A stretch of 58,062 nucleotides of DNA from Flavobacteriales bacterium (lineage in GTDB: Bacteria > Bacteroidota > Bacteroidia > Flavobacteriales_D > Sanyastnellaceae), in contig JAIXWX010000031.1 of the NCBI GenBank assembly GCA_027491075.1, positions 1-58,062 on the forward strand. Reading direction: 5' to 3'. The notes under the pieces were generated by a model. That model did no database searches. It worked only from the letters and a program-made list of their open reading frames with translations, and had not been told where the DNA came from. The translations under genes were made by a program, and so were the position numbers. This document shows, piece after piece, positions 91 through 58,062 of this stretch (position 1 is its first letter; each line of letters begins with the position of its first letter).

Positions 91-3000
91 CTAAAATCTC
101 AATTAAGTGGTTTCTCTTTTTACAGATAACTATGTTGTCACTTACAACCAGCTATGCTCAAAGCGATTCAATTCCTAAATACTCTTCTTATGGAATATTT
201 GATAAAGTCATAGACAGGTTTGGTCGCGAGTTAGTCTGGAATGATATCGTAATTGATTCGGTTAGTTCCAGTTCACATTTAGTGCTAAACGAAGGGGTAT
301 TCGAAATACACTACTATCCAAACTCAGGATTTGAGCAAGTCAATAACGTAGAGCACCAAGCAAGAAGGTTAATAATTCAAGAATTATTCTCCGTGGCCGA
401 TTCGATGTGGGGAAATTCTTTGGGCAGTGAAAAAATTATTATCCGCTTTCTTCCCATACCCTCGAATATTTCCTTAAATGAGACCTGGCCCCTTCTTGCA
501 TCATCATTTTATCTGACTCCTCAGTTTACCAATAACTTTAGCGAAGCTAGTGACTGTATTATAGCCCAATATATTCAAAGTGGAAAAAACCCATTTTATA
601 CACTTGGAAATGCCAATACTAAGTCTTTCATTAATTCAGAGAAAATAAAGTTTTCTCACCTCGATTTCTATACTAACTTAAATGGATTTAACATAAATAG
701 TGATCTGCTAAGAAACAATATCAATCCTAATGAAATTGACTTATACTCTATCGCCTTGCGTGAGCTAGTCGTTGGTTTAGGAGTGAATAGTTTCATCTCA
801 CCCCTTGGAGTCAGCACGTCTTCCAACCCTCATCAGTTTACGCGGTGGGACAGTCAGCTAAAGTTCCAGAATCAAAATCTCATTTCTTACGATTCAATAC
901 AAAAGAAATATGTTCCAGTAGCTCTACCTTCTTGGGTCTCTAGTCTCTCTCCAACCTCTGACTGCGATTCGCTTTATTTATGCTCTCAAAGTCCGTATTT
1001 TGGAGGATCTCTCACTAACGTTTCGGTATCCCATTGTTTTGATAAAGGAATAGAATGCAGTTATTTGAATGAATTATGTAGCACTGATTCTTCTGTCTTG
1101 GGCAGAAGTTGGCTACATGGAGTATTGAGAAGGAGGCTATCTCCATTGGACCTTTCTGTTCTTGAAGCGCTCGGTTATTTTTCTAATATTTGTGTTGGTA
1201 ATGCAATAAACCAAAATGACTTTTGTGCCAATCTCATCGGGGTTGCTAAATACATACACTTCTCCAATACCGAACTTAATCAGGCTTATTTAGGAATAAT
1301 CGAGGAAAATTCAAGCCAAAGCTTACATATCTCCTCTCTATTTCCGAATTCTAACTCCTTGTTGGGAATAGAGCTTTTAGATCATATAGGCAGCCCAGTA
1401 ACTTTTAGTCTAATAAACGACTCAATAAAAGTGAACAATTTTCAGAAAGGTATTAACTTTCTTCGGTTTAAACACACCAACAGCGCTGGAGACGTTTTGA
1501 ATGCTTTCGCAAGGGTTCAGCTTCTAGGAGGCGAAGTATGTGAAGGCGTACCATGTGAGAATCTAATAAGTAATTCATCTTTTGAAAATCTAGCTGGAAA
1601 TGAACCTTGCGGAATAATTGACGAATTAGGGGTACCTGATCCAGATTGGCCAAATGTATTTATTGATTGTTGGAGAGCCTTCACAGCAGACCCAGATATC
1701 CATTTCGAAAATTGTACAGATAACCGCTTTGATTTTGCAAGCGGTCCGAGTTCTGACGATACAGGAGGAAATATACCAATCATACCAGACACCGATAACA
1801 ATAATATTTTAAAGCTGTTTGCCAGAGTTTATAATGACAATCCAGCTCAATGGGAAGAGTCCATTCAAGGAACACTGGCGCAGCCCCTCGTTCCTGGCGC
1901 CACTTACGAAATATCCATGCGGATATTCAGAAGACAAGGAGGAAGCCCCCTATTAAGTATTTATTTTCGTGAAGGTGAATTTTTTACAGATGCTAACTTC
2001 ATCGATTCGCCTACAGATTGGAATCTGATACCAGGTCCCTCACAAGAAATTTTAGCATTTGCTCAACCTCCTCAATGGCAAACTTGGACATCTACATTTA
2101 CGGTTCCGTTGAATGAGACTAATTTGGATCGAATGATCATTGCCAATGAAATTGGAAATTTAAGTAATACAAATCCGAATCTAAGGAGACAATTATTCAT
2201 CGACGACGTACAATTGCGAAGAACAGAACCTGTAACATTTGATATTCCTAATACATTTATTTGTGGCGGTACAATTGGCTCGCTTCAGAATTTTGCCACG
2301 CCTGCTGGGGGCATCGTATCGGGACCTGGAGTCTTTGGTAATACTTCCTTTACCTTCGTTAGCCAACTTGCGGGAGTAGGCACACACACCCTTACTTACA
2401 CCTTTACTAGTCCCGACGGTTGCGAACACGTGGCAACAGATCAAATTACGGTTCATCCAACGGTGAGTTTTAACACTGCCGTCATCAACCCTACTTGCGG
2501 TGGCAGTTGTAGCGGTTCTATTAGCGTTGCTCCAACAGCAAGTGCCCCTGCCAATGTAGTATATACATGGCAAGGTCCAAGTATCAATTCGAACAACATA
2601 AATTCTCTTTCCCTCAATAATCTGTGCGCAGGAACTTATACCCTTACAGCTACCATCAATGGCGCCTGTACCCAAACCCAGAGCTATACTATCAGCACCG
2701 TTGCACCACCCACGGCGAATGCTACGGTGAGCAATAATATTTGTGGAGGCGCGTGCAGTAACACCATCTCGGTTGTTTCCAACAGTCCAAACAACACCAT
2801 CAGTTGGACAGGAGGATTGAGTGGTTTCAATCCAACCAACGTCTGTCCAGGGTTATATACCGCAACCATCACAAGTCCGCAGGGGTGCAGCACTATTTTA
2901 ACTGTAACAGTAACGAACTCATCGAGTGCAGGACAAAATGTAACAATTAACAATACTCAAACTTGGAATGGATTCAATGCTGGTTATAACAACATCACCA

Positions 3001-5717
3001 TTAGTAACACAGGATACCTGACCATTGAAGGACAAAGCGCGCTGATCATCAGCGGTACTATCTTGGTTCAAGACGGAGCTAGGTTAATGATTGAATCCTC
3101 CACTATTTCATTTACTCCAAATGGCCGTATTTTGGTTCAACCCGGAGGAAGAGCTTTTCTACAAAAAGCTGTTCTTACAAGTCACTGTCAGAACCAATAT
3201 TGGTTAGGCATAGAGGTTCAAGGGAGCAATGCATACTCTCAAAGTGATACATTCATGAGCCTAGATCCAACAATGGCAAACCCAGTAAACAATATTCAAG
3301 GAACTAATCAAGGTGGCATTCGTATATACAAAGACTCGCGTATCGAATTTGCTAATGTGGGGGTAAAACTTCATGCAGGTACATGGCCAACCACCCAGAT
3401 CTTTAATTCAGGGGGATTAATAGTAGCTGAAGAATCGACATTTAGAAATAATAGAAGGGACATTACATTTAGCACCTATGGATTTTCTAGCTCTCAAACT
3501 CCTTCTCAGAATTACCTAAATCAATCTTCTTTCTCTCGTTGCAACTTTGAAGTTAATTCAAATCACTACAGCTCTGGGGGACCTTTATTGGAAAGAGTTG
3601 CCATGTATCAAACAACGAATGTTTATTTCAGGGGGTGCCGTTGGATTAACAGTAGCGATGCTATAGCGAATCCAGGCCCTTCACAAGGACAAAATGTTCC
3701 AAATCAAGCTGCCCTCCGTCTAAACCAAGCAAGTTGTAAGCTTGGTGCTTTTGTATCAGGAACCACTACTATTAAAAGTGAATTTTCTGGTTTTGTCTAT
3801 GGAGTATTTGCGTCAAGTTCGTATCTTAACTCTCCAAATTCAATAAAAGGAGTGAACTTTAAATGCTACAGAGGAATTCTATGTTCTACATCATCCCCTG
3901 GTTTGCTAATTGACGATTGTAGGTTTGAAGCTCTAAATGCCAATAACTCACCAATAAGTTTTGCTATTCCTGCCATCTTTATAAACAACACTTCTAATCC
4001 TTGGGTGAATTCTGCGGCCACTATCCCAGCCTTTACTCAAGGCCCTTCATATGGTGTTTATCTTAATGCATGCGCGAGCTCAACAATTAAAAATAACATC
4101 TTTAACATAGTTGGTATAATATCAAATCAACGAGTCGGATTGTATGTAAACAATTGTGGTGGAAGTGTCATCGACATCAGAGACAATGAATTCAGAGGCA
4201 ATAGTTTTGGAATACGTTTTTTAAATAGTAATCGTAGTAGCAGCAGTGCTACAATAGATGGAACATCGTTCAAATGCAACCAATTTTCTATAAACGACCT
4301 CCATGTAGAGATAAATGCACAAAATCCAGCTTCCACTAATGTAGGAATAAATCAAAATATTTTCTTCAATCTTAATACCTCAAATTCAAATATATTCGAT
4401 GCACATTTGAGTCCATTAACCTTTTTGCCTGTGGGCAGAAACATTTGGGATAATGTACTAAACTTTCACAATTACAAAGGGAGATTAGACGAGGTACAAG
4501 ACAATGACGATCGAGTCTCTGGAATAGGAGGCTCAGGATCAATCTTAGCGGAGTATTCGGCAAATTTTCAAGCTTTTCCAGGCTGCGGGATTAGTGGAAT
4601 GTCCACCAATCTGAATGCCCTTTTAACAGACTTTCAAGAGAAGAAAACAGCTCTTGAAAGCTATAGGGATGATGGAAATCCGGAATACTACCAATATCTC
4701 ATTGAAACCATTAACACATCTAATGTTATTCAAAGATTTAATGAATTGTCGCTTATAAGTCCTGCATTGTCGGTGGACCGAATAGTAGAGGTTATGGATA
4801 AGGAGACTGATTTGCCAAGGCCCTTTCTTTTGAATATTTTGATAAATAACATTTCGTCCCTTAAAAACGGAGAGGCATTAATTAGAATCGACTCTTTACA
4901 AATACCTTTTGCTCAATGGGAAAAAGATTCGCTGTTTGGAAAATTCAATCAATTAGATGCAAAAGGTATTTTGGAAATGCAATTAAACCAATCTGCAAAC
5001 AATGCCTTTAAAGCTATTAATGAGGAACTACACACCATTTTACAAGATACGTTGATCGATAATCCTTCCATGGCTATCATTGATTTCAATTCGAAACTTG
5101 AACTAATTTCTGATGATTACAGCCGATTCCAGCGAGCACAAGAAAACTATGATTTCAATTATCTAGTCGATTATATTGATAATCGTCTTAACGAAATACA
5201 GGCATCATCCATTGAAAGTAAGGATTTGAATAGCTTAAAACAGTTGATTGAAGAAACTATGCTATTACAGGAGACCGATTCCATTACGTCATACAATTAC
5301 ACGGGTTTTGCTTCGAATTATATACTACCAGAGTTACCCCTTACCTATCGCTTTGCTTGCCAGATAATAGAAAAGTATGATTCTCTTGGCTTCCATGGAG
5401 ATTTAGAATACCCTTATGAAATCCCAAGTTCTCGCTCATTAAAAAAGCCATTTGGTAAAGTTAATTCTAGTGAGCTTAGCCTTTTTCCCAATCCTGCTAT
5501 TGACTACGTACAAATTCAATCGCATGAGACCGATTTGACAGACTGTGAAATTTTTGCCTACGATATGAGTGGTCGAAAAATTCAAATAACCCCTGTAATA
5601 CAGTCTAAACATGAGTGGATTCTGAATGTTAATAACTGGCCTAACGGATTTTATATAATTGAATTAAGAAAACAAGGCACATTTATCTTTTCAAGCAATT
5701 TTGCTATTTCAAAATAA
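3..5717 (+). CDS. T9SS cargo: degenerate metalloprotease-like domain, SprB-like repeats, beta-helix (5' partial)
   Basis: Large secreted protein of about 1870 residues, 5'-partial. The first ATG is at 132, but the frame is open back to the window edge. The codons just before it (93-131: KISIKWFLFLQIT) supply the charged and hydrophobic part of a signal peptide that ends in TTSYAQ, so the real start is lost in or before the repeat. Counting from the ATG at 132: a metalloprotease-like region lies at about 20-350, with RELVV (210-214) where HExxH would be expected. A cysteine-rich carbohydrate-binding-like segment follows at about 475-700, PKD/SprB-like repeats at about 705-930, a beta-helix-like repeat region at about 936-1490, a helical stretch at about 1490-1760, and a T9SS type A sorting domain at the C-terminus (LSLFPNPAIDYVQI). 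It is probably exported by T9SS and anchored at the surface or released. The next T9SS gene starts 2 nt downstream. The function is unknown. Confidence 0.85.
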   Translation, partial: ATLSNTQQHSATLSNTQQHSATLSNTQQHSKISIKWFLFLQITMLSLTTSYAQSDSIPKYSSYGIFDKVIDRFGRELVWNDIVIDSVSSSSHLVLNEGVFEIHYYPNSGFEQVNNVEHQARRLIIQELFSVADSMWGNSLGSEKIIIRFLPIPSNISLNETWPLLASSFYLTPQFTNNFSEASDCIIAQYIQSGKNPFYTLGNANTKSFINSEKIKFSHLDFYTNLNGFNINSDLLRNNINPNEIDLYSIALRELVVGLGVNSFISPLGVSTSSNPHQFTRWDSQLKFQNQNLISYDSIQKKYVPVALPSWVSSLSPTSDCDSLYLCSQSPYFGGSLTNVSVSHCFDKGIECSYLNELCSTDSSVLGRSWLHGVLRRRLSPLDLSVLEALGYFSNICVGNAINQNDFCANLIGVAKYIHFSNTELNQAYLGIIEENSSQSLHISSLFPNSNSLLGIELLDHIGSPVTFSLINDSIKVNNFQKGINFLRFKHTNSAGDVLNAFARVQLLGGEVCEGVPCENLISNSSFENLAGNEPCGIIDELGVPDPDWPNVFIDCWRAFTADPDIHFENCTDNRFDFASGPSSDDTGGNIPIIPDTDNNNILKLFARVYNDNPAQWEESIQGTLAQPLVPGATYEISMRIFRRQGGSPLLSIYFREGEFFTDANFIDSPTDWNLIPGPSQEILAFAQPPQWQTWTSTFTVPLNETNLDRMIIANEIGNLSNTNPNLRRQLFIDDVQLRRTEPVTFDIPNTFICGGTIGSLQNFATPAGGIVSGPGVFGNTSFTFVSQLAGVGTHTLTYTFTSPDGCEHVATDQITVHPTVSFNTAVINPTCGGSCSGSISVAPTASAPANVVYTWQGPSINSNNINSLSLNNLCAGTYTLTATINGACTQTQSYTISTVAPPTANATVSNNICGGACSNTISVVSNSPNNTISWTGGLSGFNPTNVCPGLYTATITSPQGCSTILTVTVTNSSSAGQNVTINNTQTWNGFNAGYNNITISNTGYLTIEGQSALIISGTILVQDGARLMIESSTISFTPNGRILVQPGGRAFLQKAVLTSHCQNQYWLGIEVQGSNAYSQSDTFMSLDPTMANPVNNIQGTNQGGIRIYKDSRIEFANVGVKLHAGTWPTTQIFNSGGLIVAEESTFRNNRRDITFSTYGFSSSQTPSQNYLNQSSFSRCNFEVNSNHYSSGGPLLERVAMYQTTNVYFRGCRWINSSDAIANPGPSQGQNVPNQAALRLNQASCKLGAFVSGTTTIKSEFSGFVYGVFASSSYLNSPNSIKGVNFKCYRGILCSTSSPGLLIDDCRFEALNANNSPISFAIPAIFINNTSNPWVNSAATIPAFTQGPSYGVYLNACASSTIKNNIFNIVGIISNQRVGLYVNNCGGSVIDIRDNEFRGNSFGIRFLNSNRSSSSATIDGTSFKCNQFSINDLHVEINAQNPASTNVGINQNIFFNLNTSNSNIFDAHLSPLTFLPVGRNIWDNVLNFHNYKGRLDEVQDNDDRVSGIGGSGSILAEYSANFQAFPGCGISGMSTNLNALLTDFQEKKTALESYRDDGNPEYYQYLIETINTSNVIQRFNELSLISPALSVDRIVEVMDKETDLPRPFLLNILINNISSLKNGEALIRIDSLQIPFAQWEKDSLFGKFNQLDAKGILEMQLNQSANNAFKAINEELHTILQDTLIDNPSMAIIDFNSKLELISDDYSRFQRAQENYDFNYLVDYIDNRLNEIQASSIESKDLNSLKQLIEETMLLQETDSITSYNYTGFASNYILPELPLTYRFACQIIEKYDSLGFHGDLEYPYEIPSSRSLKKPFGKVNSSELSLFPNPAIDYVQIQSHETDLTDCEIFAYDMSGRKIQITPVIQSKHEWILNVNNWPNGFYIIELRKQGTFIFSSNFAISK

Positions 5718-5719
5718 CA

Positions 5720-7216
5720 ATGAAAACAAAACTAATTTTATCTTTTGCATTCTTGCTTTGTAACCTTGGAGGCTTTTGTCAATTCAACAACTTCTATCTC
5801 ACCGAGCAGAGAGGTCATGGTATGGCCATAGAAGTCGATGATCAAAACGGTAACTATGTTGTTCCTTTTTTTTACGGTGATCCATCTTTAGGCGAAACCA
5901 GTTTGGCTTTTTTAAACATAGATCCTAGTGGCACGTTAAATAACGTTTCATACGTTCTCAGTAATCAACCACAACTTCTATTAGCTGAACAGTCAGGTTT
6001 TTTTAAAACAGCGGATAATGGGTATGTTATTGCCAATGGTAACAACGGACTACAGTTATTAAAATTAAATGAAAACCTTGATGTCCAATGGACTGTTGCC
6101 GAAAATAACGGTAGTAATGAGGGCTACTGGGGTGGGCACGAGTTGTTCAATAATGATTTAATTCTTGCCTATATTGATTTTTCAGAACCGTATAATACAC
6201 TTTCAATGCAACGATTTTCTCAACAAGGAGAGCTAGAATTTGAATTCGATATTGAACTTGATTATCCCTTTTCATATCCTTACTCTTTTGCAGTGAATGA
6301 TTCTTTGATTTTTGTTTCTTTTCATAACCTAGTGTTCTCTGAATATAGAAGAAATTTCGTTGTTTGCTATAATGTGTTCACTGGAGAAGAAGTGTGGGAG
6401 TTCCATCAAATTGAAGATAGCATCGACTTGGCATACACAGATCCAATCCTTTGTTGGAGCACATCAGGAGAGCTGCTCTATGTATATCATGAAATTAATA
6501 CACTTTCGGCTCCAAATAACTTTTCCTCTGGTTATTTCGGACGAATAAAGTTAGCAAAGCTTAATCCTCAAACAGGTCAGTTCATAAACGACGAATATGT
6601 GTGTGAAACCACAATTCAAATATGGCTGTTGGATGCCATTGCAACAGATGACGGAGGAGTCGCTTATTTATGGCAAGGATTCTCTGATGAATATCCAGGA
6701 GCTTTCGCCCCGAAAATAACAAAACTTAATGCCGATCTTCAAACAGAATGGGTTTCTATTTATGTCCCACCCGACCCCTATTATAATAGCAGTGGGGGAA
6801 GTTACTTTCTACTAGACTTGGAGGTTACGAACGATGACTGTTTAGTCGCAGGAGGTGTATGCTCAGGCCCAGACATCAACTGGGAATTATTCCAACACCC
6901 GTGGGTGCTCAAGGTGGATGCGTGCGGGAATCAAGTGGTCAGTGATTGTACCTTAAGCGGACTGGCAGAGCTGGGGGAAAGCAAACAATTGGCCGTCTAT
7001 CCCAACCCTGCAAGAGACCGTATATTTCTTAAAGCAGAAGATGCCATACAGCACGCTACCATCTTCGACATGAGCGGTAAAATCGTTCACAACGAAAGTT
7101 TCAGTGGCGCTCTCGAACAAACATTATTCGTCGATCACCTTCCACAAGGTTTGTACCTCGTGCAAGTAACTACCAGCGCAGGCGTGGTGAGTAAGAGGAT
7201 CATCATCGGGAGCTAG
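5720..7216 (+). CDS. T9SS type A sorting domain-containing secreted protein
   Basis: 498 residues. It has a clear signal peptide (MKTKLILSFAFLLCNLGGFCQ) and a C-terminal T9SS type A sorting domain beginning LAVYPNPARDRIFL and ending in basic/hydrophobic residues. The middle reads as repeated beta-strand blades with recurring DG.. and KLN.. turns, suggesting a beta-propeller-like fold of the kind found in many Bacteroidota cargo proteins. I do not recognise a catalytic motif. It starts 2 nt after the stop of the preceding T9SS gene, so the two are probably co-transcribed. It ends against a dyad-rich region shared with the convergent tetR gene. Predicted location is the cell surface or secreted; the substrate is unknown. 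Confidence 0.85.
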   Translation: MKTKLILSFAFLLCNLGGFCQFNNFYLTEQRGHGMAIEVDDQNGNYVVPFFYGDPSLGETSLAFLNIDPSGTLNNVSYVLSNQPQLLLAEQSGFFKTADNGYVIANGNNGLQLLKLNENLDVQWTVAENNGSNEGYWGGHELFNNDLILAYIDFSEPYNTLSMQRFSQQGELEFEFDIELDYPFSYPYSFAVNDSLIFVSFHNLVFSEYRRNFVVCYNVFTGEEVWEFHQIEDSIDLAYTDPILCWSTSGELLYVYHEINTLSAPNNFSSGYFGRIKLAKLNPQTGQFINDEYVCETTIQIWLLDAIATDDGGVAYLWQGFSDEYPGAFAPKITKLNADLQTEWVSIYVPPDPYYNSSGGSYFLLDLEVTNDDCLVAGGVCSGPDINWELFQHPWVLKVDACGNQVVSDCTLSGLAELGESKQLAVYPNPARDRIFLKAEDAIQHATIFDMSGKIVHNESFSGALEQTLFVDHLPQGLYLVQVTTSAGVVSKRIIIGS

Positions 7217-51166: not shown

Positions 51167-54100
51167 ATGCACTCTTACAACCTCGTCATCAGAATAGCTC
51201 TGATATTGATAATTTCCTTTCAAGGGCTCGAGTTTAATGCTCAAAGTCAAGGTCCACAATCGACCCTGCAGGGAACCAATGTAGCAACCATCGGAAGCAC
51301 AGCATGGACCAGTCCTAATAATGTTTTAAGTAGCAATGATGCTTGGGCAAACGGCACTTTTCTTCAACAATCGAATTATCTTTTGGCCAACAACTTCAGT
51401 TTTTCTATACCCAGTTGTGCCACCATCACGGGAGTTGAAGTGTCAGTTGAGAGAGGAACGGCTGCAAAACCTGGAGTGAGCATATTAAATCCATGGGCAC
51501 AACGAACTCCCTCCACCTTTCCAGCGGCATTTACATATAGCACTATAGCAGGAGCTAACCGAATGTTAGTTCTTGTAGTTGGAATAGAAAACGGCACAGA
51601 TAGAGATGTCACAGCAGTAACTTATGGGGGGCAGGCGATGACCCTAGCAGGCGAAGTGGCGGTAACAGGAAATGGAACCTTCTTTAATCGTACAGAAATT
51701 TGGATTTTGAATGATGCAGGGATAACAGCAGCTACCGGAAATGCTTTCGCACTAACTGTCACAGGAACTCCATTCGAATACGTAGAACACTTATCAGCAG
51801 TTCTTCTTGCTAACGTTGATCAAAGCAATCCTATTTTCGATACTTCCTCCAACACCCAAGCCAATTCAACACCAACGATCAACTTAGGCAGTGATCCTTT
51901 GAATGTGGGAATAGGAGATATGGTATTGACCAGCGTCGTTTGTGGAAATGTCGGCAGTTTCACTCCATCCGCCAGCTACAATGAAGGTTTTGATCAGAAT
52001 GGTGCTTCTGGTGGCGGGGGCTCTCCATCCACCACACAAGCGCAAACAAGAGCAATAACCGCTGCTGGGACTGAAAATCCAACTTTAACATTTTCAGCAA
52101 CTCCAAATAGACAAGCCCTTTTAGGAGTTGTTTTCCGCAGGCAAGTATATCGCGACGTACAGGTGCGTTTGTTTTCAGCGGGATCTCCAGTAGGCAACAA
52201 TTTGGCGAATACAACGGTAGATTGGCCCACAACGGACGCTTCAGTGACGTATGGTGGTGCAGGAAATTTATGGGGAGCGACATTAACACCAGCGATAATA
52301 AACAACACCAATTTTGGTGTTGGAATATCTGTTATTGGAGGCAATGCAGCGATGCGTATTGATCATGTTACAATGCGTGTATTTTTCACGAATGAAAATA
52401 CTCCACCTACTATTACTTGTCCTGCGAATATTTCAGTGGCTGCTCCAGCGGGATCATGCAATGCGGTCGTCAATTATTCCGTGAGTGCAAGTGATAATTG
52501 TGATTGTTTTAATCAAACAGCAGCTATTCCTGGATTTACTTTCATTGCACAGTTCAACGGACGCAGCTACTATAGATCCAACGGCAGTGCTACCTGGCCA
52601 GTGGCAAGAAACACAGCGATTTCGCTTGGCGCTCATTTAGTCACCATCTCCAGCGTTGCCGAAAACAATCTCTTTACTGGTTTAGGTTTACATTGGGGGG
52701 GGCTGACCGATGAAGTGACTGAAGGCACATGGTTATGGAGCAATGGTGAGCCAGTTACCTACACCAACTGGTCGCCTGGAGAACCCAACAACTCAGGGGG
52801 CAATCAAGATTATTTAGTACTAAATTGGAGCGGCACTGCATGGGATGATCAAGGAACTATTACAGGAACAAGTTATCCGTATATCATTGAGTTTAGTTGT
52901 TTACCATTAAACTTAGTGAGTGGATTGGCAAGCGGCAGTACCTTTCCTCTAGGAACGACTACAGTTTCCTACAATGCAACAGATGCCGCTGGAAACATAT
53001 CTTCCACTTGCTCATTTACTGTCACTGTCACTGATGCAACAGGACCCACTATAACTTGCAGTCCAACAGTAACTCTCAATGCAGGAACAGTTCAAACAGA
53101 AGACTTCGAAGCAGGAGCAATTGGATGGATTCCCAATACTACAGAAACCGATCCTGCTACAACGAGAATACTCGGCCGATTTGGTGCGAGTTCGGGAGCT
53201 CAAGAAGTAAGTAAAACATATACTCTTCCTGGTACATTAAATAAAGTAGTGTCATTCGATTTACTAAGATTAGACTCTTGGGATGGTGAGAACATTGTAA
53301 TATATGTAAATGACGTGGTTGTTGCGTCCTATAATCCAGCTATCAATAATAGTGGGACAACGGGACCCGTTTCTTGGACATCGACAGTGCTCGGAACCAT
53401 CACACCGAACGCATTCAGCGGAACGTGGGCCGATCAAAGAGTACGAGTTGTATTAAATGTAAATGACGGACTTAGCGTTCTTAAACTTGGATTTGGTTCT
53501 ACATTAAACCAAAGTATTCCTGACGAATCGTACGGGATTGACAACTTAAGCATTCAATATAATGACGCAGGGGCTTGCACCGCTGCGGCCATACTTCCAT
53601 CTCCTATTGTTACAGATAATTGTGGCGTTGCTACCCTCACCAATAATGCTCCTGGTCAATTTTCTTTGGGCGCGACATCAGTAACTTGGACTGCAACGGA
53701 TGTAAATGGTAATGTTAGTACATGCCTCACTAATGTTACAGTAGTTGACAATATTTCTCCAAACATTACTTGTCCTAGCAATCAAACGGTGAGTGTAGGG
53801 GCAGGATGTACGGTAGCCCTTGCAAACTATACCACCCTGGCTACAACTAGTGACAATTGCGGAGGAGTAGTAACCGTTACTCAAACCCCTGCCGAAGGGA
53901 CTATATTAACTGGGCCAGGGACAACCGCTGTAACACTTACAGCGACTGATGGTTCTGGAAACATTTCAACATGTACCTTCAACGTGATCCGAACAGATAA
54001 CACACTTCCTGTGATGACCTGTCCGAGCAACATAACAGTCAATGCAAACAGCAATTGTCAAGCTGTGGTAACCTATACTACACCCACTGCCACAGATAAT

Positions 54101-57100
54101 TGTAACTGCGCACCAGCAAGTATTCCCGGTTATACATTGATTGGAACTTTCAATGGGCATACTTATTTTAGATCCACGGCAACCAGCACCTGGAGCGCTG
54201 CAAACACTTCTAGTCAAGCGTTGGGGGGCCATCTTGTTACAATAACGAGTGCTGCTGAAAATGCTTTCTTAGCAGGAATTGGACAGCATTGGATTGGAGT
54301 AAGTGACCAACTGGTAGAGGGCACATGGGTTTGGGTCAACAATGAGCCATCCATTTACACCAATTGGGCAGGCGGCCAGCCAGATAATGGTGGCAACCAA
54401 GATTTTGGAGTAATAAATTTTTCAGGTGCGCAATGGGACGATCAAAGTGCGACCGCGACGTTTTCTCATATCCTTGAGTTTGATTGTACCACTTCAGCGC
54501 TAGGACCCGTGATATTGAATGGGTTTCCTTCAGGCTCTACTTTTCCCCTAGGTACCACTGTGGTTACTTATCAAGCTGCTGATGGTAATGGTAACGTAAA
54601 CACCTGTAGCTTTAACGTAACAGTTTTAGACAACACCCCGCCTACTTTAAACTGCCCGAGTAATGTTAATGCTGTGATTTCGGGATGTAGTGGATCCGTG
54701 ACTGTGCCAACCCCAATTAATTTAACTAGTTCTAGCGCTTGCACTCCCATCCCCGCCGGTGGAAGTTGCGGTGTTGGTAATGGAGAAGCATTTACGGGTA
54801 TGACCATTAATGCAGGTCAGACATTTTGGTATTCCAGCACAGGCACCTTTGCCAATATCACTTTGAATGGAGGAATCCTAAGGGTTTGTGGAAACTTAAC
54901 TCTGAGCAATATTACGTTCACTTCAGGAAGTATTTTCATTGAGCCAGGAGGAACACTCACTATTTCTGCAGGAGGCGCATTTAACTTGAACGGAAACTGC
55001 AATATAATTAATCGTGGGACAATTAATCTGAATCGAAACACCACACTTCAAAATCCCAATAATTTATTAGCCAATGCAACTTCTTCTGCTGTGTGGAATC
55101 AAAATGCCAATCTTGTCATAAACAACAACGCTTCTAGATTCGTAAATCTAGGAACTGCGACGATTAACAATTTAACCCTTCAAAACAGCACCAATATTAC
55201 ACAGGTATGTTTAGGGCCTGCGAGCACGTTGGCCCTTGCTAGTATATCAAATAGCAGTACCAACGCAGTTTCAACAAGTGGAGGTCCGGCATGCATCCGA
55301 TACACTGGCAGTGCAGCTCTCAATAATAATTTCACTAGTTCAAGTGATTTAAACATATGTCGTGCAACGGGATCCACTGTATCAGGTACGGGAACGTGGG
55401 GCTCCGCTATAGTTTCATTGAATTGTAGTTCCTGTTCTCCATTGCTTTCAGTACTTACCGTGAATGATAACTGCAGCATTGCAAGTATCACTAACTCCAT
55501 AAATGGTACCAATAACGCAAGTGGCACTTATCCCGTTGGTACTACTAACATTGTATGGACCGTTACAGACAATGCGGGAAATACGAGTACTTGTACACAG
55601 GTACTAACAGTAACAGAAAATATTCCTCCAACAATAACATGCCCAGGCGCACAAAACTTGATTTTAAATTCAAGTTGTAGTGCCACACTTCCTGATTACA
55701 GAAGCTTAGCTACGATCGCTGACAACTGCACACCTGTGGGTAATTTAGTAGTTACTCAGAGTCCAGCCGTCGGAACTGTATATACTAGTGAGGCTTCACT
55801 TACCGTAACACTCACGGTGACAGATGCATCTGGAAATTCTTCCAATTGTAGTTTCATCGTAAACATTGATGACACTACTAACCCTACAGCAATTTGTCAA
55901 AATGCGACACTGACATTAAACACCGTACCACCCAATAGTGGAAATGCCAGCATATCTGGTATAATCAACACGTACGCTCCAGTCACAGCAATAGGATCTA
56001 ACACCATCACTATTGGATCAACCAGTGGAGCCTCAACTCCATTCGCTATAGGAAGTAAAGTGTTGGTTATTCAAATGAAGGGAGCAAGCTACACTACCAC
56101 CAATGACGTTAATCATGGAAGTCTTATCAATATTGGAAATGCTGGTAATTTTGAGTTTGCAAGAATCTCCGAAATCGTTGGTAATACCATAACACTTCAG
56201 TTCAATTTAGTCAACACCTATGATATTCAGGGCGTCGTTCAGCTAGTGAGAATTCCAGAATACAACAACGTGACAGTATCTGGAGTGGTGAGTCCATTGG
56301 ATTGGAACGGCACCGTTGGAGGTGTTGTTGCTTTTGATGCCGCTGGAACTGTCACACTTAACGCAAACGTAAGTGCTCAAGGTAATGGGTTAAGAGGAGG
56401 GGCTAGGTCAACAAATTTCTTTGATGGATGTCCTGGAGTAACCGGGTTTGTTTACCCTAGCCCTTCTGGTTTATCAGGAGAAAAAGGAGAGAGCATCGCC
56501 TTACCTCAAGTAATTTTAGGTATTAATCAGAATTCAGGCAGGGGAAGGATTGTAAATGGAGGTGGTGGCGGAAATGACACAAACACTGGTGGAGGAGGAG
56601 GATCCAATGGTGGAGCTGGAGGCTCTGGGGGCACAGACTTTTGTAATAACCCAAACATTGGAGGAGTTGCTGGTCTATCCATGGTTACCCAACTTAATGC
56701 CAACAGACTATTCTTAGGTGGTGCCGGAGGTGGCGGCCATCAAAATGACGGTAATGCGACCGCAGGAGCAGATGGAGGCGGAATTATCATTTTAAAAGCA
56801 AATTCAATAGTACCCAATGGATTTACCATAAACGCGAATGGTTCAAACGCCGCTAATGCTGGCAATGACGGTGGTGGTGGTGGTGGAGCTGGAGGCTCCA
56901 TTCTGCTTGAAGTTAACACAATAAGTGCCGCTCTCCCCATCAGTGCAAACGGTGGTAATGGAGGTAATTGCTCCAGTAGTCACGGGCCAGGTGCAGGTGG
57001 AGGTGGTGGGTACATTTGGCACTCTGGATCTTCTCTTCCTGCTAATTTAACCACCAATGTTAGCGGAGGTTCCGCCGGCACCGACGGTACAACCTCTCGC

Positions 57101-58062
57101 GGATCCACAGCGGGATCTGCAGGATTAACACGAAACAACTTTTCCTCGCCAGTAACAGCGTTTACCATTTTAAACCCAAGTCTTGTAAATAACGGAAGCT
57201 TCGACAATTGTGGAATTGCTAACCTTTCCGTTAGTCCAAGTCTATTCGATTGTACTGATGTAGGAACCAACTCCGTCACATTGACTGTCACGGATATAAA
57301 CGGAAATGTATCTACATGTACTTCTACCGTTACTGTAACTGAGACGGTACCTCCTACTATTGTTTGTCCTTCAAATATCACCGCGAACGTGACAGCAGGC
57401 GCCTGCAACAGATCCGTTGTGACGCCCAATCCTACTACAGGAGACAACTGCGGTGTTACTATATTGACATGGGCACTCACTGGTGCTACTACTGGTGCAT
57501 CAGCTGCAACTGGTATCAATAACCTTGGGACGTTTACATTCAACGTTGGTGTAACCACTGTAACTTACACCGTAAGAGACGCTGCGGGAAATACCGCAAC
57601 ATGTAGTTTTAATGTAACTATAAATGACAACATCCCTCCATCTATTACTTGTCCCAGTAACATCACCGCAAATGCGAGTGCAACCGCTTGCAACGCGTCC
57701 ATTACTGTTCCTAATGCAACCACAAGCGACAACTGTGGGATCGCACAACTCACATGGATTTCATCTGGAGCAACCATAGCTGCTTCACCGGTTACGGGCA
57801 TCAATAACATCGGAACAAGAACATTCAACGTAGGTGTATCAAATATTACCTATATCATAGTAGACGTTAATGGATTAGTCAGTTCATGTACATTTACAAT
57901 AACCGTAACCGACAACGTCCCTCCAACCGTTACTTGTCCTGCCAACATCACCGCCAACGTGGGTGCAGGAACATGTACCGCTTCTGTGAACACTCCGAAC
58001 CCAACCACAGGAGACAACTGTGCAGTGACCGTGCTTACTTGGGCACTCACTGGTGCAACCAC
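51167..58062 (+). CDS. Giant HYR-domain adhesin with two inserted C-type lectin domains (3' partial)
   Basis: One frame stays open from the ATG at 51167 to the window end: at least 2298 residues, no stop reached. An in-frame TGA at 51131 supports this start, and the N-terminus is a signal peptide (MHSYNLVIRIALILIISFQG, ending NAQS). Approximate order: N-terminal beta domain 30-410; HYR domain 413-624 split by a C-type lectin domain (456-580); jelly-roll-like domain 645-803; further HYR 810-945; second split HYR 948-1150 with a lectin domain (987-1107); strand-repeat region 1200-1430; HYR 1430-1580; unknown domain 1600-1735; glycine-rich segment 1735-1948; then 95-residue HYR repeats. Lectin 1 has EPN (539-541) and WDD (559-561); lectin 2 has QPD (1071-1073) and WDD (1090-1092). 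It is probably a surface adhesin binding sugars; T9SS export is expected, but the C-terminus is not in view. Confidence 0.92.
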   Translation, partial: MHSYNLVIRIALILIISFQGLEFNAQSQGPQSTLQGTNVATIGSTAWTSPNNVLSSNDAWANGTFLQQSNYLLANNFSFSIPSCATITGVEVSVERGTAAKPGVSILNPWAQRTPSTFPAAFTYSTIAGANRMLVLVVGIENGTDRDVTAVTYGGQAMTLAGEVAVTGNGTFFNRTEIWILNDAGITAATGNAFALTVTGTPFEYVEHLSAVLLANVDQSNPIFDTSSNTQANSTPTINLGSDPLNVGIGDMVLTSVVCGNVGSFTPSASYNEGFDQNGASGGGGSPSTTQAQTRAITAAGTENPTLTFSATPNRQALLGVVFRRQVYRDVQVRLFSAGSPVGNNLANTTVDWPTTDASVTYGGAGNLWGATLTPAIINNTNFGVGISVIGGNAAMRIDHVTMRVFFTNENTPPTITCPANISVAAPAGSCNAVVNYSVSASDNCDCFNQTAAIPGFTFIAQFNGRSYYRSNGSATWPVARNTAISLGAHLVTISSVAENNLFTGLGLHWGGLTDEVTEGTWLWSNGEPVTYTNWSPGEPNNSGGNQDYLVLNWSGTAWDDQGTITGTSYPYIIEFSCLPLNLVSGLASGSTFPLGTTTVSYNATDAAGNISSTCSFTVTVTDATGPTITCSPTVTLNAGTVQTEDFEAGAIGWIPNTTETDPATTRILGRFGASSGAQEVSKTYTLPGTLNKVVSFDLLRLDSWDGENIVIYVNDVVVASYNPAINNSGTTGPVSWTSTVLGTITPNAFSGTWADQRVRVVLNVNDGLSVLKLGFGSTLNQSIPDESYGIDNLSIQYNDAGACTAAAILPSPIVTDNCGVATLTNNAPGQFSLGATSVTWTATDVNGNVSTCLTNVTVVDNISPNITCPSNQTVSVGAGCTVALANYTTLATTSDNCGGVVTVTQTPAEGTILTGPGTTAVTLTATDGSGNISTCTFNVIRTDNTLPVMTCPSNITVNANSNCQAVVTYTTPTATDNCNCAPASIPGYTLIGTFNGHTYFRSTATSTWSAANTSSQALGGHLVTITSAAENAFLAGIGQHWIGVSDQLVEGTWVWVNNEPSIYTNWAGGQPDNGGNQDFGVINFSGAQWDDQSATATFSHILEFDCTTSALGPVILNGFPSGSTFPLGTTVVTYQAADGNGNVNTCSFNVTVLDNTPPTLNCPSNVNAVISGCSGSVTVPTPINLTSSSACTPIPAGGSCGVGNGEAFTGMTINAGQTFWYSSTGTFANITLNGGILRVCGNLTLSNITFTSGSIFIEPGGTLTISAGGAFNLNGNCNIINRGTINLNRNTTLQNPNNLLANATSSAVWNQNANLVINNNASRFVNLGTATINNLTLQNSTNITQVCLGPASTLALASISNSSTNAVSTSGGPACIRYTGSAALNNNFTSSSDLNICRATGSTVSGTGTWGSAIVSLNCSSCSPLLSVLTVNDNCSIASITNSINGTNNASGTYPVGTTNIVWTVTDNAGNTSTCTQVLTVTENIPPTITCPGAQNLILNSSCSATLPDYRSLATIADNCTPVGNLVVTQSPAVGTVYTSEASLTVTLTVTDASGNSSNCSFIVNIDDTTNPTAICQNATLTLNTVPPNSGNASISGIINTYAPVTAIGSNTITIGSTSGASTPFAIGSKVLVIQMKGASYTTTNDVNHGSLINIGNAGNFEFARISEIVGNTITLQFNLVNTYDIQGVVQLVRIPEYNNVTVSGVVSPLDWNGTVGGVVAFDAAGTVTLNANVSAQGNGLRGGARSTNFFDGCPGVTGFVYPSPSGLSGEKGESIALPQVILGINQNSGRGRIVNGGGGGNDTNTGGGGGSNGGAGGSGGTDFCNNPNIGGVAGLSMVTQLNANRLFLGGAGGGGHQNDGNATAGADGGGIIILKANSIVPNGFTINANGSNAANAGNDGGGGGGAGGSILLEVNTISAALPISANGGNGGNCSSSHGPGAGGGGGYIWHSGSSLPANLTTNVSGGSAGTDGTTSRGSTAGSAGLTRNNFSSPVTAFTILNPSLVNNGSFDNCGIANLSVSPSLFDCTDVGTNSVTLTVTDINGNVSTCTSTVTVTETVPPTIVCPSNITANVTAGACNRSVVTPNPTTGDNCGVTILTWALTGATTGASAATGINNLGTFTFNVGVTTVTYTVRDAAGNTATCSFNVTINDNIPPSITCPSNITANASATACNASITVPNATTSDNCGIAQLTWISSGATIAASPVTGINNIGTRTFNVGVSNITYIIVDVNGLVSSCTFTITVTDNVPPTVTCPANITANVGAGTCTASVNTPNPTTGDNCAVTVLTWALTGAT
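52694..52701 (+). repeat. G8 homopolymer in the lectin 1 coding region
   Basis: Eight G encode the end of Trp plus two Gly (HWGGLTDEV; the paralogous lectin 2 has HWIGVSDQL). The frame is intact at this length. Confidence 0.8.
57350..58062 (+). repeat. 285-bp tandem HYR repeats
   Basis: Units begin at 57350, 57635 and 57920, exactly 285 bp (95 residues) apart; the third is cut by the window end. Each encodes PPxxxCPxNITAN, then a DNC and a GINN[LI]GTxTFNVGV segment. They are diverged at the DNA level, so they look biological rather than an assembly duplication. Confidence 0.88.

Follow-up and report, generated by a model that had tools for sequence, protein, structure and literature searches.

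Two HYR domains interrupted by C-type lectin domains in a probable giant surface adhesin of a Flavobacteriales bacterium

Introduction

In the RTX adhesins MpIBP, FrhA and AhLap, which are giant repeat proteins, a ligand-binding domain buds from a discontinuous immunoglobulin-like (Ig-like) domain (accessible portions of PMC12077191 and PMC10865825). The guest has its ends side by side and its binding site far from the rod. The guests named in these portions are PA14, peptide-binding, carbohydrate-binding module (CBM) or other sugar-binding, RTX and vWFA domains, and some of them bind sugars with the assistance of calcium. Here, a related arrangement is described in a giant surface protein of an aquatic Flavobacteriales bacterium (family Sanyastnellaceae; GenBank assembly GCA_027491075.1), encoded on contig JAIXWX010000031.1. 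The window analyzed, positions 1 to 58,062 of the forward strand, is the whole of this contig (C18) of a 3.02 Mb draft genome. The host is an HYR domain instead of an Ig-like domain, and the guest is a C-type lectin domain (CTLD), whose ends and sugar site would be placed in the same way. Two HYR domains were found to be interrupted by such a guest. The protein is probably a surface adhesin with an HYR rod, from which stapled, Ca2+- and glycan-binding CTLDs would project sideways out of split HYR loops.

Results

Two split HYR units in one open frame

At 51167, the reading frame of the giant surface protein begins with a stretch that resembles a signal peptide by eye. Pfam HYR matched 12 stretches of the frame and Lectin_C matched two. 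An earlier sequence-only reading of this DNA had described two HYR domains, each split at the same point by a C-type lectin fold of about 120 residues, and the motif positions that it gave were reproduced when residues were counted from the M at 51167. The parts are as follows.

51167-58060, + strand: reading frame of the giant surface protein (2298 codons, no stop), 3' end beyond the 58,062-base contig
52403-52507, + strand: HYR domain 1, first half (residues 413-447, PPTITCPANI..DNCDC)
52505-52507, + strand: Cys447, extra Cys at the entry of insert 1 (putative exit partner Cys578, 52898-52900)
52526-52900, + strand: C-type lectin domain 1, after DNC (residues 454-578; Lectin_C match and model)
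52781-52789, + strand: EPN motif of lectin 1 (residues 539-541)
52805-52807, + strand: Gln547, at the usual place of the Glu ligand, paired with Asp560 of WDD
52841-52849, + strand: WDD of lectin 1 (residues 559-561)
52901-53041, + strand: HYR domain 1, second half (SGSTFPLGTTTVSY..CSFTVTV)
54008-54109, + strand: HYR domain 2, first half (residues 948-981, PVMTCPSNI..DNCNC)
54107-54109, + strand: Cys981, extra Cys at the entry of insert 2 (putative partner Cys1107, 54485-54487)
54122-54487, + strand: C-type lectin domain 2 (residues 986-1107; Lectin_C match)
54377-54385, + strand: QPD motif of lectin 2 (residues 1071-1073)
54398-54400, + strand: Gln1078, paired with Asp1091 of WDD
54434-54442, + strand: WDD of lectin 2 (residues 1090-1092)
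54494-54634, + strand: HYR domain 2, second half (SGSTFPLGTTVVTY..CSFNVTV)

Lectin_C scored 39.6 and 46.6 bits in units 1 and 2 (curated cut-off 22.6), and HYR scored 54.8 and 58.7 bits (cut-off 21.7). When the lectin was cut out, each shell gave one continuous HYR match (59.2 and 61.7 bits) that covered profile positions 3-81 in unit 1 and 2-81 in unit 2. An intact HYR domain at 57344-57622 scored 48.3 bits in a whole-genome search, which is a different search and can serve as a rough yardstick only. The Pfam matches and the profile match of the joined shells bear out that both HYR domains are interrupted in the same loop by a CTLD, with inserts of 122-125 residues. DNCxC was located at residues 443-447 and 977-981, and SGSTFPLG at 589 and 1122. 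EPN (539-541) and QPD (1071-1073) are present in lectins 1 and 2 as described, WDD follows 20 and 19 residues past the sugar motif (559-561 and 1090-1092), and the usual place of Glu is taken by Gln in both lectins (Q547, Q1078). The two units share 53% identity. Judged by the profile matches, the host HYR domain is discontinuous in both units and is completed after the lectin guest.

Predicted fold of unit 1

A model of unit 1 was built from 85 natural units (99 candidates, 14 rows dropped) and reached a predicted local distance difference test score (pLDDT) of 92.4 and a predicted template modelling score (pTM) of 0.77. Strands were predicted at model residues 6-8, 13-16, 23-25 and 31-33 before the insert and at residues 172-176, 183-185, 187-196 and 206-213 after it. 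Model residues ~39-168 aligned with solved C-type lectins at Z 18.0-20.1 (best 50 matches). The closest of these, 1tdq_B, matched the lectin part at Z 20.1 with a root-mean-square deviation of 1.4 over 122 residues. The C-type lectin fold, on which the sequence-only reading was staked, was predicted for unit 1 by this structure search of the model; the guest is a CTLD in unit 1 by the model and in unit 2 by its sequence.

A shared insertion place and an extra pair of cysteines

A 77-column HYR model derived from 209 intact HYR domains was used as reference, with the DNC Cys at column 33. The lectin starts after columns 32-44 in 68 of 68 distinct split shells (those that passed a test for both halves). 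By one and the same test, an extra Cys behind the DNC Cys was present in 33 of these 68 split shells versus 0 of the 209 intact domains, and all 33 shells with this entry Cys also have a Cys at the lectin exit. The pair probably forms a disulfide that staples the lectin base. Entry and exit Cys were also found in 14 of 22 CTLDs from other settings that passed the same length filter, so the pair may belong to the lectin module.

A shell tree was calculated from all 68 split shells together with 110 intact HYR domains (99 of the 209 were dropped). Split shells cluster on it, with 14 label changes versus a lowest value of 45 in 200 shuffles. Distances between shells correlate with distances between inserts (r 0.31; maximum 0.17 in 2000 permutations); both tests leave genome kinship in. 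Because the shells cluster and covary with their inserts, most split units are probably copies of an old unit rather than new insertions.

Distribution of the split-HYR design

Related loci were collected by a scan of one genome per species, which gave at least 593 pattern matches (560 confirmed). Only the 80 confirmed matches most similar to the chimera were retained, which inflates the proportion of split HYR domains among them. These best 80 of 560 came mostly from Bacteroidota (Flavobacteriales, Chitinophagaceae, Cytophagales, Saprospiraceae, Marinifilaceae) and also included nine cyanobacterial loci and one planctomycete. A search for the same insertion in other HYR proteins had been proposed, and related loci do carry it by profile. 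Named species whose loci were classed as split HYR include Ulvibacter antarcticus, Psychroflexus salarius, Aequorivita antarctica, Dokdonia sinensis, Flavobacterium buctense, Rufibacter psychrotolerans and Flaviaesturariibacter aridisoli. The Flavobacteriales relatives L034, L036 and L061 encode the same units.

Among 165 CTLDs of cellular loci, profiles found both HYR halves around 75, the downstream half only at 43, the upstream half only at 2 and neither at 45; the loci had been picked for similarity and some overlap, so that some genes were counted twice. The upstream half of the 43 downstream-only CTLDs looked HYR-like by eye in most of those inspected. Counted as distinct sequences, and again from loci picked for similarity, 112 of 159 cellular CTLDs are followed by HYR. 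An HYR half was found by profile in 0 of 81 viral CTLDs.

Twenty-nine of 299 genomes in the order sample matched at E 1e-20, eight of them over nearly the whole unit (G000, G002, G009, G010, G020, G516, G617, G670). G020, G009 and G010 are members of the family to which the window itself belongs. At E 1e-10, 35 of 395 genomes matched, many by HYR halves only. In the phylum sample, 19 of 296 genomes had a Lectin_C match of any kind; among the 14 control genomes there were none. The split-HYR lectin design is patchy but widespread, and the architecture is recurrent and probably functional.

Loci L089, L109 and L102 carry four, three and two tandem CTLDs, apparently inside one HYR domain; the upstream HYR half of L109 was seen by eye only, and the downstream half of L102 went undetected by profile. 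In the cyanobacterial loci L092, L100, L104, L107 and L110, CTLDs alternate with GGxGND-type repeats that look by eye like RTX calcium-binding repeats.

A paired exchange in the calcium site

The calcium site was described by two pairs of residues: pair 1, positions 1 and 3 of EPN, and pair 2, the usual Glu together with the Asn of WND. The mincle site has E176 beside EPN 168-170 and WND 191-193 (PMC7618208, accessible part). In the window, the pairs read E/N + Q/D in lectin 1 and Q/D + Q/D in lectin 2. The known site-2 sets (E/N + E/N/D or Q/D + E/N/D) are unmatched by the two lectins, which show E/N + Q/D/D and Q/D + Q/D/D, and both lectins keep the acid count of the site despite the altered ligand set.

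Pairs were then tabulated for 266 distinct CTLDs, giving E/N + E/N (145), Q/N + Q/N (49), E/N + Q/D (15), Q/D + E/N (12), Q/D + Q/D (3) and other combinations (42). The Q/N + Q/N group, which has no acid at the four places, includes many of the loci L046-L099, which are split-HYR lectins with QPN, Gln and WND. Removal of redundancy and gaps left 198 CTLDs, and 79 of these were dropped for Q/N in pair 1 or for other residues in pair 2. Pair 2 in the 119 eligible CTLDs was E..N in 101, Q..D in 18 and mixed in none. It switches at least nine times on the CTLD tree; such trees rest on few columns, and many of their forks are unresolved. Well-supported branches offer 4 independent pairs, and in all 4 both pair-2 places change together (p 0.125, not significant); with all branches counted, there are 9 such pairs. 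Pair 1 is looser (n = 141: E/N 115, Q/D 21, Q/N 4, E/D 1) and has no association with pair 2 (85, 14, 11 and 3 of 113; 3 independent pairs, p 1).

Since pair 2 of the eligible CTLDs occurs only as E..N or Q..D, the Gln that the sequence-only reading noted in place of Glu is one side of a compensated exchange, after which the pair still has an acid and an amide. By analogy with EPN/QPD, we hypothesize that pair 2 is a second amide/acid switch.

CTLDs in other host domains and in viruses

Genomes G016 and G452 encode CTLDs in or beside an Ig-like repeat, in 6 and 5 copies; one joined shell was scanned and gave no meaningful Pfam match. The CTLD of L095 (same gene as L253) stands behind SprB repeats. 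The joined shell of L120 gave a weak HYDIN/BACON-like Ig match across the junction, at most 23 bits and below cut-off. Locus L022 (G000:C14:220905-221177) holds a third CTLD of the genome from which the window comes, whose frame is 1820 aa long and whose domain setting is different.

Apart from L120, the viral loci encode 62 distinct CTLD proteins, and those listed have 269-334 residues; 20 of the 62 viral rows were dropped before counting. One viral protein was modelled, with the flanks of the CTLD at ~90 pLDDT and the CTLD itself poor, at 35-72. Transthyretin-like folds matched this model at only Z 6.8-7.7, a level that may mean no more than a shared arrangement, and the joined shell of the protein had no Pfam match above cut-off. 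Most of the viral CTLD proteins (L113-L192 except L120; e.g., L119:2-976) are of about 325 residues, with a signal-peptide-like start in those inspected, a predicted beta-sandwich interrupted by the CTLD, and a weak EF-hand/dockerin-like stretch that is below cut-off. The viral CTLD gene of L167 has DnaB-like helicase and ribonucleotide reductase genes as neighbors, and the genes behind it had no PHROGs match.

The cases in other hosts suggest, without proving it, that the CTLD is a general plug-in. A broader proposal is that the CTLD serves several unrelated beta-sandwich repeats of Bacteroidota and their viruses as a plug-in with two independent amide/acid switches, EPN/QPD and Glu..Asn/Gln..Asp; this is conceivable and rather doubtful. 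If it were true, one rod could carry lectins of several sugar classes, given that all four switch states occur among the 113 CTLDs, and lectin specificity would depend on both switches. A single pair-2 swap might then act like QPD and a double swap like EPN again, and such behavior would invert the sugar assignment of the sequence-only reading.

Export and surroundings of the gene

Export of the giant surface protein by the type IX route would fit what was found in its relatives. Of 47 split-HYR frames whose end lies within the locus, 38 have a PNP-type motif in the last 95 residues, and curated NCBIfam models found type IX tails in each of the 3 split-HYR proteins that were scanned (L039, L042, L045). 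No RTX family was listed at E up to 1 in the 2298 visible residues, the C-terminus being beyond the contig.

Residues 1212-1287 of the frame (54800-55027) gave a weak G8-domain-like match of 16 bits, under the cut-off of 22.9. Two neighboring genes at window positions 132-7216 both have type IX sorting tails.

Discussion

Proposed mode of display

HYR repeats would build the rod, and at two places a CTLD is inserted in the HYR loop after the DNC motif. Closure of the HYR shell round the insert would bring the ends of the lectin together, and the pair of entry and exit Cys would staple its base. The lectin may then stand out to the side, its sugar site facing away from the rod, and would bind glycans through Ca2+.

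Several observations weigh against this reading. The gene is truncated by the end of the contig, and its C-terminus is unseen. An HYR gene fragment with a type IX type B tail stands at the start of another contig of the same genome (L023:1-2142, G000:C3), followed by a gene named by eye as PorP/SprF-like; this fragment is a possible continuation of the window gene. The contig ends have no exact overlap, and no 17-mers are shared between the last 3000 bases of the window and the first 2500 of C3. Among the 68 split shells, 15 have an exit Cys without a recognized entry Cys and 20 have neither; a looser entry criterion (at least 2 Cys in the 24 residues before the lectin), applied to 108 distinct split CTLDs, gave both Cys in 83, entry only in 13, exit only in 1 and neither in 11. 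The structure-search list was filled by CTLD matches, so that the HYR shell was barely probed, and a solved HYR structure sought by sequence at E 0.01 was not found. Calcium geometry, disulfide and sideways projection are inferred and unseen in the model. In the mostly Saprospiraceae Q/N + Q/N group (49 of 266), none of the four pair positions is an acid, so not all relatives can have the canonical calcium site.

Alternative readings

The same arrangement could have arisen if accidental recombination between repeats had left two truncated HYR halves beside a lectin. Repeats abound in the gene, and recombination may have brought in the insert; with the lectin starting inside the same 13 columns in 68 of 68 shells, and a single confident model of the whole of unit 1, this account is very improbable. 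CTLD folds are common as variable domains of diversity-generating retroelements, which would make the lectins candidate targets of such an element. Reverse transcriptase (PF00078) had 0 matches in the draft genome, compared with matches in 3 of 14 control genomes, and a retroelement target can hardly be credited here.

What the lectins bind is a separate question. The sequence-only reading held that one protein combines a mannose-type lectin (EPN) with a galactose-type lectin (QPD). Both motifs are really there, and a mixture of EPN and QPD was counted in 13 of 66 frame entries with at least two CTLDs (the 66 unmerged; 8 distinct genes once loci on one contig were merged); since mixed proteins recur, lectin variation along one rod may be selected. 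Pair 2 is, however, reversed in both lectins, which puts them outside the simple EPN/QPD rule, and the rule is therefore not simply applicable. In CEL-I, the stacking Trp is located two places after the motif; no aromatic residue is found at this place in the window (Ser in lectin 1, Gly in lectin 2), and among 22 QPD CTLDs it is aromatic in only 4 (2 F, 2 Y). The rule also breaks in known lectins: CEL-IV carries EPN yet binds galactose, and in CEL-I, where Trp stacks on GalNAc, a QPD-to-EPN change by itself failed to convert the lectin (PMC10377782, accessible part). In the accessible part of a bivalve lectin review, the EPN/QPD rule is called simplified (PMC12842671). The motif rule is a weak guide to sugar class, and the assignment of two sugar classes on its basis is a tentative possibility. 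An alternative of another kind treats the lectin folds as structural or protein-binding modules without remaining sugar binding. CTLDs that do not bind sugar are well known, and both the non-canonical site of the two lectins and the relatives' group without acids at the four pair positions would fit. Against it, pair-2 residues change together (101 E..N, 18 Q..D, 0 mixed), as if the site were selected, and EPN or QPD plus the last Asp are kept in both lectins; a complete loss of sugar binding is unlikely. The reading favored here is still that of an HYR rod adhesin with Ca2+- and glycan-binding CTLDs.

Comparison with known systems

CTLDs inserted in HYR or Ig-like domains were not evident from the titles and opening abstract lines of the papers listed in literature searches that covered few subscription journals, which is weak evidence of absence. 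No paper was found that links the HYR domain, C-type lectins and Bacteroidetes, or that treats a C-type lectin inserted in an Ig-like domain in Bacteroidota. The main texts of PMC12077191 and PMC10865825 do not contain the term 'C-type lectin', and that of PMC12077191 contains neither 'HYR' nor 'Bacteroid'. Phages have CTLDs and Ig-type domains, and the accessible part of PMC9853417 does not state that one is inserted in the other.

The joined shells match the HYR domain of bacterial surface proteins (PF02494) end to end above cut-off. An ordinary HYR domain is uninterrupted and has no extra Cys after DNC (0/209), whereas the domains described here hold an insert of 122-125 residues. Invasin and intimin are likewise bacterial adhesins that combine Ig-like domains with a CTLD-like domain; there, the CTLD-like domain is terminal and not inserted in an Ig-like domain. 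With the animal C-type lectins (MBP, CEL-I, the mannose receptor family), the window lectins share the CTLD fold, EPN or QPD, and a W-x-D motif. They differ in pair 2, which is Glu..Asn in the animal lectins and Gln..Asp in the window, and the proposed disulfide would join the ends of the insert, unlike those at the canonical places of animal C-type lectins. WDD is listed in two bivalve lectins (EPN/WDD and QPN/WDD) with no sugar data attached (PMC12842671, accessible part). The paired swap in the calcium site leads to a testable prediction on C-type lectin specificity in general.

The closest likeness is to the RTX adhesins. Their secretion differs, in that AhLap has a type I secretion signal (PMC12077191 and PMC10865825, accessible portions) and relatives of the window protein have type IX tails. 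If the window protein works likewise, split-domain display as described for RTX adhesins would extend to another phylum, host domain and guest, and the split HYR unit would give a sequence signature for finding sugar-reading modules among those surface proteins of Bacteroidota that are very long and little understood. The split Ig-like domain of the RTX adhesins is the best precedent for the split HYR domains of this protein, which by analogy would present their lectins in the same manner.

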